This document shows, in pieces, positions 23,544 through 26,079 of a stretch of 37,206 nt of DNA. Source of the stretch: a virus; IMG/VR virus record IMGVR_UViG_3300023178_000123, positions 1 to 37,206 of that record. One strand, written 5' to 3'. The notes under the pieces were generated by a model that searched no databases, had not been told where the DNA came from, and saw nothing but the letters and a program-made list of their open reading frames with translations. A program made the translations under genes and the position numbers. The first letter of the stretch is position 1. Every line of letters begins with the position of its first letter.

Positions 23544-23960
23544 TTATTTGTCCTTTTTACTAGATCCGGTATACAAGCCAAACCATGCTGCACCAGCACC
23601 TACAACAACTGAAATAAGTCCTGATTGTTCCATACTTGGTGCTGGAAGTTCCATGTACCAAATAACAGTTTTATAAAGTAGAATAATGTAAACTGTTAGG
23701 AATAAACGTGGAAAAATTCTCCAAGCATCGACTGCTCTTGCCAAGTGTATAATTTTAGCATAAGGATTTGGGCCTAGATCTTTTACACTTGTATCTACTT
23801 CTAAATCTAGTTTAACTTTTCTTGTAGCAGTGCCGTCACTTGCTGGAACCGAAACTTCTGCTTCGTATTTTTGTTCCTCATACTTCATAGGTTCGGAACG
23901 TGCAGGTGCTGCTGCTGGCGCTGATTTTTCTTCTAAGTCAGCCGGACTTTTTCTTGGCAT
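23544..23960 (-). CDS. Membrane protein with two C-terminal TM segments (holin candidate)
   Basis: A 138-residue protein has a long soluble N-terminus (1-82, acidic/Ala-Pro-rich start MPRKSPADLEEKSAPAAAPA) and two C-terminal membrane helices: FPRLFLTVYIILLYKTVIWY and LISVVVGAGAAWFGLYTG, ending in GSSKKDK. The two-helix, Lys-tailed layout suits a holin or membrane anchor. Its position at the end of the lysis-gene block supports a lysis role; it overlaps the next TM gene by 23 bases. Function is inferred. Confidence 0.6.
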   Translation of the reverse strand: MPRKSPADLEEKSAPAAAPARSEPMKYEEQKYEAEVSVPASDGTATRKVKLDLEVDTSVKDLGPNPYAKIIHLARAVDAWRIFPRLFLTVYIILLYKTVIWYMELPAPSMEQSGLISVVVGAGAAWFGLYTGSSKKDK

Positions 23961-24240
23961 TTGTTTTCCCCTCTAACTCTTTTATACGAGCTTCTAATTC
24001 ATCAATTTTGGATGTGATTTTAGGATACTTAACACGCCATGCATTTGGATCATTTTGTAACCAAGTCCACCCCCAGCGAATTGCTAGATATTCTAGTGTA
24101 CGGTCAAACTTGCCCACAGCCCATATCGCCATTTTTGTATCTTTGAACCAAAACAAAAATGCAGCGCCAAATAATGAACCAGCAATACCTGTGTAAATCC
24201 ACAAGCGATCACTTGCCATGTTTTGTATCATTTCCCACAT
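23938..24240 (-). CDS. Small membrane protein in lysis cassette, RBS in hairpin
   Basis: A 100-residue protein with one strong TM helix, LWIYTGIAGSLFGAAFLFWF (13-32), followed by a charged amphipathic region (DTKMAIWAVGKFDRTLEYLA) and a coiled-coil end (KIDELEARIKELEG) with a Lys-rich tail. This could be a holin, antiholin or lysis regulator. A 9-base-pair inverted repeat (24238-24263) places the AUG in its stem and AAGGA in its loop. It overlaps the next TM gene by 23 bases. Confidence 0.65.
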   Translation of the reverse strand: MWEMIQNMASDRLWIYTGIAGSLFGAAFLFWFKDTKMAIWAVGKFDRTLEYLAIRWGWTWLQNDPNAWRVKYPKITSKIDELEARIKELEGKTNAKKKSG

Positions 24241-24263
24241 ATAGTTTCCTTGTTAACTATATG
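24238..24263 (-). promoter_or_regulatory. Inverted repeat enclosing the RBS of the 100-residue lysis-region gene
   Basis: In the RNA, CATATAGTT pairs with AACTATATG (9 of 9) around the loop AACAAGGA. The loop holds the Shine-Dalgarno and the 3' arm holds the AUG. A weak late-like box (CTAAATA, 24270-24264) would start a transcript inside the 5' arm. Confidence 0.7.
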
Positions 24264-24266
24264 TAT

Positions 24267-24722
24267 TTAGTTGAATGGATTTATATTTCCAATGATAGAC
24301 TTTGTTGGTTGATTGTTTTGAGCTTCAACTTCTGCTTTTGCACCGTCGATTTGTGCATTTGCATCGTCTAATGCTTGTTCAGATGCTTCGTAGTAGTTTT
24401 TATATGCTGCGATGATTTGTTTTTGCTGTGCTATTAGACGCATAATTTCACTCATATTAAGTGATAGTACTTCATAGCCGTCATCTGTAAGTCCTATAAG
24501 CATAGGATCTTTTTTATCTTTTAAAAGTTTTGCAAAAACTTCTTGTGCATTTTCTTCTGTGATAATAACCCATTCTACATCTTTTAAGCGTAGTTGTTCT
24601 ACAGGTGGAAGAACTAGTGCAGGTTTATCGATAGGTTTTGCACTGATTTCAATTTGTCTTGGTTTTGTTGTACAACCTGCAAGTACAAGTGTGCTAACTA
24701 GTGCTATTACTAAAAATCTCAT
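24267..24722 (-). CDS. Outer-membrane lipoprotein, o-spanin-like
   Basis: From ATG at 24722 the protein (151 residues) begins MRFLVIALVSTLVLAGCTTK, a lipoprotein signal with lipobox L-A-G-C (Cys17). The mature part has a Pro-rich stretch (KPALVLPPVEQLRLKDVEW), an alpha/beta domain, and a long helix (IMRLIAQQKQIIAAYKNYYE). Its start overlaps the i-spanin-like gene's stop (ATGA). A lipoprotein directly after endolysin and i-spanin is the usual o-spanin place. ATG at 24740 gives a six-residue extension. It is longer than typical o-spanins, so another lipoprotein role remains possible. Confidence 0.7.
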   Translation of the reverse strand: MRFLVIALVSTLVLAGCTTKPRQIEISAKPIDKPALVLPPVEQLRLKDVEWVIITEENAQEVFAKLLKDKKDPMLIGLTDDGYEVLSLNMSEIMRLIAQQKQIIAAYKNYYEASEQALDDANAQIDGAKAEVEAQNNQPTKSIIGNINPFN

Positions 24723-25216
24723 AGGTTCTTCCTTTTCCAAGCATCTGATTGTATGTTAGGATCAAAGTTTGGATTTGCATCTCTCCAACATTCTGGGTTT
24801 ATCTCGCTTGGTTTTGTTGCAGACATTTCTGCGTCTGTTAAAGGTGCCCCACTTAATATTTCTAAACAACGCTGTGCATTACGTGTTGCACCGTTTAAAA
24901 CTTTTTCTGTTAGCCCTGGCTTTGCAACTGCCGCGGCACCTATATCGTGTCGCGACAGTCTGTTTTCTAACGCTCTATTACGATCGCTAATTGCTTGAAA
25001 TTCGTTGGCCAATCTAGCATTTTCTTTTTGCATTGCTGCAAAACTTGCTGCTTGTGCTTTTAGAGCTTCTTCGTTGGTTTGGACTGCTGTTTCTAACTTA
25101 GCATTATTTTCCTGCAAGATAGCAATGCGCTCCTGTGTATCTTGATAATAAAGATACCCTGCGCCGGCCATTCCTGTCATCAAAAAGAAAAATACTATTG
25201 CTAACTTAGCACCCAT
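24719..25216 (-). CDS. Inner-membrane coiled-coil protein, i-spanin-like
   Basis: A 165-residue protein with a single N-terminal TM helix (LAIVFFFLMTGMAGAGYLYY), then a coiled coil of about 70 residues (ERIAILQENNAKLETAVQTN, EFQAISDRNRALENRLSR), and a periplasmic C-terminus with Cys in AQRCLEIL and PECWRD. This is the classic Rz-like layout: anchor in the inner membrane and meet an outer-membrane lipoprotein. It follows endolysin by 5 bases and couples to the lipoprotein downstream. Confidence 0.75.
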   Translation of the reverse strand: MGAKLAIVFFFLMTGMAGAGYLYYQDTQERIAILQENNAKLETAVQTNEEALKAQAASFAAMQKENARLANEFQAISDRNRALENRLSRHDIGAAAVAKPGLTEKVLNGATRNAQRCLEILSGAPLTDAEMSATKPSEINPECWRDANPNFDPNIQSDAWKRKNL

Positions 25217-25221
25217 CCTAC

Positions 25222-26079
25222 CTACCCCAATAATTTTCCCAGTGTTTTAGGTCCTACAATGCCGTCTGGAGCAAGCCCATTTTCACTTTGCCACTGCTGG
25301 ACAATGCGTTCAGTGCCTGGACCAAAGATACCATCTGCTGGCTCAATGCCTAACTTTTCTTGTACTTCTGCTACAAGCGGACCTCTACTGCCTTTGCGTA
25401 TAGTTTGATTTAAATTAAGTTCCTGCTCTTCGGGTTCTTCAAAATCACCACCTAATACATCCATAGCATGTAGATAATGTTTTTTACGATCATCTAAACC
25501 AATAGTGCCACCATTGATACGTTTTGTTGCGCCAACAATGTCTTGGTCATCACAATACTTGTTTAGGCCATTTGTATCCCAGAACCAGCAAGCACTATCT
25601 AATGCACCTTTTTTAGTGCGTACATAGTCTACTGCTTCTTCTGGACTCATATCTACTGCTTCGCCAAACTTTGTGTAGTTGTAACGTCCAGTAAGTTGAA
25701 GTATGCCGCCTCCGCGGAAACGCCAACCATCACCGCTATCTGCGTCTCCGTTGTCCATTCTATTTGCGTAAATAACGTTTGCAATTTTTTCAGGTTGTCT
25801 ATGATACTCATTTGCATCTCTTCCTGCTCGTTTAAAGTATTTAGGGAAAATTGTATTCAATGCTTTGGCGCTATAGTTCAAGTTTTCACTTAGTACTCTA
25901 AAGCCGCCGGACTCGTGTCCACACTGTGCAACAAACATTGCTACACGCTCAATCGTGTCTACTTCCCACAGTGGAAGGATCTCGCACATTGCTTCGTACC
26001 AGTCTTCCCAGTCGTCCCGATGAATAAGCTCTTCAGCCATCCACGGTTCGAAGTTAAATTTGAAGTGTTCTTTTGCCAT
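25222..26079 (-). CDS. Endolysin: GH19 muramidase/chitinase-fold domain plus PG-binding domain
   Basis: This 285-residue lysis enzyme has a GH19 (chitinase class I fold) catalytic domain (about 1-205), with the first catalytic Glu in QCGHESGGF (Glu56), NLNYSAKAL after Glu65, and GWRFRGGGILQLTGRYNY near 118-135. A C-terminal PG_binding_1 domain (about 224-285) reads TIRKGSRGPLVAEVQEKLG and DGIFGPGTERIVQQWQ. It should cleave peptidoglycan. No signal peptide, so it depends on a holin. Its leader starts with a late-type box (26117-26124) and a GNRA-capped hairpin. Confidence 0.92.
   Translation of the reverse strand: MAKEHFKFNFEPWMAEELIHRDDWEDWYEAMCEILPLWEVDTIERVAMFVAQCGHESGGFRVLSENLNYSAKALNTIFPKYFKRAGRDANEYHRQPEKIANVIYANRMDNGDADSGDGWRFRGGGILQLTGRYNYTKFGEAVDMSPEEAVDYVRTKKGALDSACWFWDTNGLNKYCDDQDIVGATKRINGGTIGLDDRKKHYLHAMDVLGGDFEEPEEQELNLNQTIRKGSRGPLVAEVQEKLGIEPADGIFGPGTERIVQQWQSENGLAPDGIVGPKTLGKLLG

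Follow-up and report, generated by a model that had tools for sequence, protein, structure and literature searches.

An uncultivated marine T4-like phage carries, in front of the gene for a small membrane protein (MWEMI), a predicted hairpin whose 5' arm begins within a late-promoter box and whose 3' arm takes in the start codon. Comparison of sequences establishes the stem, its covariation, the conservation of the box and the existence of a control gene that has the box without the hairpin. The assignment to the type of late-promoter switch known from T4 soc, here acting on a new gene in a new phage group outside the T-evens, is well supported by this comparison. Very probably, the arrangement is a translational switch embedded in a promoter, by which most of the MWEMI protein would derive from the gene's own late promoter.

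The hairpin site and its gene neighbourhood

The window, that is, the whole stretch of DNA analysed, is a 37-kb record from this phage. Its DNA polymerase is of phage family B, with its nearest counterparts in large phages such as Phosso and Atu_ph07, and it also encodes a clamp loader, PhoH, thymidylate synthase, a ClpA-like ATPase and DnaJ. No Rfam match was obtained within the window. On the minus strand, the order of genes begins with an endolysin (25222..26079; PHROG 181 endolysin, E = 3e-71; Pfam PG_binding_1 and Glyco_hydro_19), followed by an i-spanin-like gene (24719..25216; PHROG 739 Rz-like spanin, E = 8.5e-11) and an o-spanin-like lipoprotein gene (24267..24740; PHROG 812 Rz-like spanin, E = 2.5e-9), which has the lipobox LAGC in its translation and whose start is likely the ATG at 24722. 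The MWEMI gene (23938..24240) comes next, encoding 100 aa with one hydrophobic stretch, and then a gene for 138 aa with a hydrophobic C-terminal half (23544..23960; PHROG 10198), DnaJ and the ClpA-like ATPase. MWEMI and the 138-aa gene overlap by 23 nt; among 49 boxed loci of relatives, the downstream neighbour was recognised 3' of MWEMI in 29, with an overlap in at least 26.

The hairpin site lies in the 26 nt that separate the o-spanin stop from the MWEMI start. The stop codon, TAA (24269-24267), overlaps the late-promoter box CTAAATA (24264..24270, minus strand), which is kept in relatives and is predicted to occupy -12 to -6. Within this box begins the 5' arm, ACATATAGTT (24255..24264, minus), the 9-nt part of which after the box reads CATATAGTT (24263-24255). 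The loop, AACAAGGA (24247..24254, minus), holds by sequence and fold the Shine-Dalgarno (SD) motif AAGGA, and the 3' arm, AACTATATGT (24237..24246, minus), contains the AUG (24240-24238) and extends into codon 2 of MWEMI, its portion AACTATATG (24246-24238) terminating in the ATG of the 100-aa ORF. The stem consists of 10 perfect Watson-Crick pairs (24264-24255 with 24246-24237) and one U-G pair; thus, the repeat enclosing AAGGA and the AUG, originally given as 9 bp, is confirmed and is longer than noted. The box lies 23 nt before the AUG, and T4 box spacing places the late transcription start at the A at 24258 (minus), which leaves the first part of the 5' arm upstream of the predicted start.

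A fold of 81 nt reaches -15.5 kcal/mol, against -7.5 +/- 2.4 in shuffled sequences (z = -3.4). Among the 114 SD-preceded candidate starts of the window, this is the longest perfect stem containing an AUG, the runner-up having 7 bp. In read-through RNA the predicted probability that the AUG is unpaired is about 0, and an RNA beginning at A24258 retains only about 4 bp of the stem. The predicted cost of opening the region from -15 to +13 is 10-12 kcal/mol in the read-through RNA and about 4 kcal/mol in the late RNA, which still retains some predicted alternative pairing.

Conservation of the hairpin and of the late box

Two IMG/VR scans yielded more than 200 relatives of MWEMI, and 72 distinct upstream regions were drawn from the loci retained. 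The only relative among cellular genome contigs (FZLS01000112.1, 7.4 kb) belongs to a Rhodobacteraceae metagenome bin; it is perhaps a stray phage contig and, as such, a weak hint of the host. A box of the form (A/C)TAAATA stands 12-45 nt before the AUG in 51 of the 72 regions. The typical boxed leader reads AATAAATA-CACATAGTAAC-loop with GAGGG-GTTATTATG, and altered yet complementary arms are numerous, such as CATATAAA/TTTATATG and CATATATAAC/GTTGTATATG. When 45 distinct boxed leaders were folded, the AUG was paired in 76%, against 25% +/- 7% in dinucleotide shuffles, with a mean energy z of -14.5; in 10 of the 45 the fold lacked AUG pairing. Cut at the predicted late start, the boxed leaders had the AUG paired in 18%.

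Permutation of the 3' arms among sequences gave weaker stems (z = -5.7). The same procedure on cluster representatives gave z = -5.9 and -4.5, falling to -2.4 when the set was reduced to four very distant ones, scores that overstate independence, as the sequences are related. In an alignment of 24 sequences, helix 1 is formed in 99% of cells, and one pair (18-40) appears as GU in 8, GC in 7, UA in 7 and AU in 1. The covariation score is 0.254, compared with 0.140 after shuffling (reached in 0 of 500) and at most 0.062 with slid partners. The inner helix is 56% paired and aligns poorly because arm register and loop length vary, and the three pairs of the AUG itself carry little covariation, since the AUG is fixed. 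Covariation in related phages had been named beforehand as a check of the prediction, and the arms are indeed conserved with compensating changes (z about -5.8; score 0.254). On this comparative evidence, the MWEMI hairpin is conserved by compensatory change.

Regarding the box, the late promoters of T4 place it at -13 to -6 and the T4-like phage Aeh1 uses CTAAATA, from -12 (PMC1524935); in cyanophages, it is NATAAATA (PMC2984593). Within 60 nt upstream of the predicted genes of five large relatives (98-237 kb), the enrichment of ATAAATA is 10-23x, the heptamer being the commonest enriched upstream heptamer in four of them and the third in the other, and CTAAATA is enriched 3-7x upstream of genes. 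In the window itself, CTAAATA occurs 11 times for 9.8 expected and is not over-represented, so its significance comes from its position and from its conservation in relatives. The conserved box stands at the right distance for a late RNA that would lack part of the 5' arm. Two large relatives (G003 and G004) encode a protein of late sigma family PHROG 12791 (E about 1e-78), which also matches the T4 gp55 family, PHROG 234. No match to a late sigma factor was obtained in the window or in the other records, which may be fragments, nor to the T4 clamp family PHROG 223 in these relatives, in a search run without a positive control.

The hairpin is not a general companion of the box. In the same phages, a GATAAATA box is also conserved in front of the structural gene MHDIQ (27357-26833 in the window), whose leader forms no hairpin despite the box (z = +0.9). 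Taken together, boxed genes do not stand out for structure (mean -2.0 kcal/mol, and -2.1 for other genes), so the hairpin device belongs to particular genes. Over 47 relatives, the predicted mean opening costs are 11.0 kcal/mol for read-through RNA and 3.9 for late RNA, a difference of 7.0 kcal/mol; as a baseline, the same difference is 2.6 kcal/mol in MHDIQ and 3.3 in a set of 99 other boxed genes. One reason considered for the conserved 5' arm, an extended late promoter of general use, was rejected, since MHDIQ has the box without the hairpin and since ATAAATACNCATA, among nine relatives, occurs once in four, twice in a fifth and not at all in the remaining four. The 21 upstream regions in which no box was recognised mostly overlap other upstream genes (FkbM methyltransferase, lipase or unknown), and those box-less leaders that were folded gave no comparable AUG hairpin.

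Hairpin leaders of other genes

Scanning of other boxed genes in the large relatives led to a second family, MSRPKP (about 97 aa), with 51 distinct boxed leaders, across which the form GATAAATA-TATGCGTAGTTAAT...ATTACGCATATG is conserved. Its hairpin, which takes in the AUG and SD, is stronger than that of MWEMI (mean -8.35 kcal/mol, z = -26.9, over the 51 leaders) and is found in dozens of viruses (L201-L280, e.g., L201 1964-2003; L093 14015; L119; L098). Matched changes of the arms are found here too, such as TATGCGTA/TACGCATA and TATACGTA/TACGTATA, and in one relative (L257) the arms, ACTGTGCA/TGCACAGT, are wholly different and still complementary. The MSRPKP homologues of PA5oct, Phosso, Atu_ph07 and SCTP-2 have box-like sequences and, by eye, no clear AUG hairpin.

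Three further leaders are worth recording. Small genes beginning M(A/T)K(S/K)F.(Q/D)YL (L099 about 7387 and L111 about 17840, both on the minus strand; also L027, L078 and L080) show a GATAAATAC box and, after it, a hairpin (e.g., CTTTATAATAC/GTATTATAAAG) that includes part of the SD. In one phage, the gene MKNRIILA (L088 about 9471, plus strand) has a CATAAATA box and then CATGTGGAGGGCATCCACATG, which forms an 8-bp stem whose 3' arm contains the AUG, in a MWEMI-like architecture. The endolysin leader of the window (26123-26080, minus), like those of L025 and L031, has its box enclosed by a CCAAT/ATTGG stem, which covers the SD, as well as an inner G+C-rich hairpin; a switch at the window endolysin is not claimed, the predicted opening costs hardly differing (about 8 and 7 kcal/mol) and the stem being present in only three leaders seen. 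The idea that a same-strand upstream gene, by permitting read-through, favours hairpins was also discarded, as their frequency shows no difference between genes with such a neighbour (18 of 76) and those with an opposite-strand one (7 of 29), on crude gene calls.

The proposed switch, its alternatives and its meaning

It is proposed that read-through RNA, which holds both arms, would have the MWEMI start codon folded into the stem, and that ribosomes would rarely initiate on this long RNA. The late promoter CTAAATA would start a second RNA inside the 5' arm, presumably at or near A24258, and this RNA, keeping about four stem pairs, would be translated. The output of MWEMI would then come mainly from its own late promoter, probably late in infection, and the overlapping 138-aa gene would perhaps be controlled too, by coupling. 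The original prediction of a T4-type timing switch, with early read-through RNA untranslated and late RNA translated, is borne out in its architecture: a late box precedes the 5' arm, the arms covary, and truncation is predicted to free the AUG in most relatives. As to timing, the genes upstream of MWEMI carry late-like boxes of their own, so the switch may not divide early from late expression but tie MWEMI to its own promoter during the late period.

Among known systems, T4 e, soc and I-TevII were run through the same script as the window, which returned their hairpins and boxes as published. The closest likeness is to soc, where the late box also stands just before the 5' arm, the SD lies in the loop and the AUG ends the 3' arm. 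The distance from box to AUG is 29 nt in soc and 23 nt in the window, and the gene, the phage group and the arm sequence differ; moreover, the support is experimental for soc (PMC3014915) and comes from sequence for MWEMI. In T4 e, the late promoter is likewise inside the stem, and such a structure represses the read-through RNA about 100-fold (PMC3014915); however, its SD is in the 3' arm and its AUG outside the stem, and the gene it controls is lysozyme, whereas in the window it would be MWEMI and not the endolysin. The leaders of I-TevI, I-TevII, mobE and segB share the situation of a late gene within an earlier unit, with its start hidden in read-through RNA (PMC2988022, PMC3014915), although these genes encode homing endonucleases and MWEMI is a small membrane protein without such a family match. 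In common with the soc, e and I-TevI class, a predicted hairpin pairs the AUG in the read-through RNA of MWEMI, and a gp55-type late sigma factor is encoded in this phage group, in G003 and G004.

The main rival is a translational coupler, in which the hairpin would keep the start blocked and the 5' arm would be melted by ribosomes as they complete the upstream gene, with MWEMI translation following that of the upstream gene and not the choice of promoter. The window and 15 distinct boxed leaders have an upstream stop that ends 3 nt short of the end of the box, so close that a ribosome terminating there could cover the 5' arm. However, upstream genes vary among relatives, and some of their stops stand off by about 50 nt or more, with small ORFs missing from the list perhaps lying in between; for MSRPKP the median distance is 32 nt. 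By their coordinates, the genes upstream of T4 e and soc end 37 and 32 nt before the respective starts, and the T4 e read-through RNA is still repressed despite that distance (PMC3014915). A coupler also leaves the presence of a late box at the 5' arm unexplained, and we regard it as improbable.

Less probable still, and very unlikely, is that the site acts in DNA, as an operator where a repressor would bind the palindrome and cover the late promoter. A perfect palindrome does adjoin the promoter, and I-TevI, acting at a site that overlaps its own late promoter, represses that promoter (PMC2988022). Against this, two pairs of the stem are U-G in 9 of 24 sequences and G-U in 8 of 24, which are mismatches in DNA; the arms vary freely yet stay complementary, up to the wholly different ones of L257, and the stem is anchored on the AUG. 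There is even less to be said for the view that the hairpin serves the upstream gene, as a terminator or as a 3' structure stabilising its mRNA: it does stand directly 3' of the o-spanin stop codon, but it has no T run and is not called as a terminator, and relatives with other upstream genes still have box, stem and AUG together. Finally, a chance inverted repeat without function, conceivable in A+T-rich sequence, which yields many short palindromes, and with a box at chance frequency in the window, can practically be dismissed, the stem being unique among the 114 starts and, strongly against chance, conserved with covariation.

For the candidate holin or lysis regulator of the original suggestion, no match to a holin family was obtained, the sequence has a single hydrophobic stretch, and the structure model is of low confidence (pLDDT 54), too poor for an identification by structure, which was dropped. 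With the MWEMI protein as query, PHROG gave nothing at E <= 0.001 and Pfam nothing above its cut-off; the phage collection contained no relative, and no cultured relative was found. Only the position of the gene suggests a lysis role. In the box-less relatives L023, L029, L036, L156 and L184, MWEMI overlaps an upstream gene for an FkbM methyltransferase or a class 3 lipase, and not spanins, which argues against a dedicated lysis role.

The switches of T4 are single examples of textbook standing. Of the phages covered in review, only closely related T4-type ones had the gene e structure reported (PMC3014915), and an earlier report of such a switch in phages like those described here was not found in the open-licence papers searched. 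We lean slightly towards the view that late promoters cutting start-hiding hairpins recur in large uncultivated marine phages of the T4 superfamily, where they would serve at least two unrelated families (MWEMI and MSRPKP), probably independently of the T-evens. If so, the MWEMI and MSRPKP proteins would arise from no promoters other than their own. Diverse natural variants, dozens of them, lend comparative support to the mechanism far outside the T-even group, and supply ready-made compensatory mutants for testing it. Moreover, they point to late genes of unknown function whose products, apparently, must not be made from read-through RNA.
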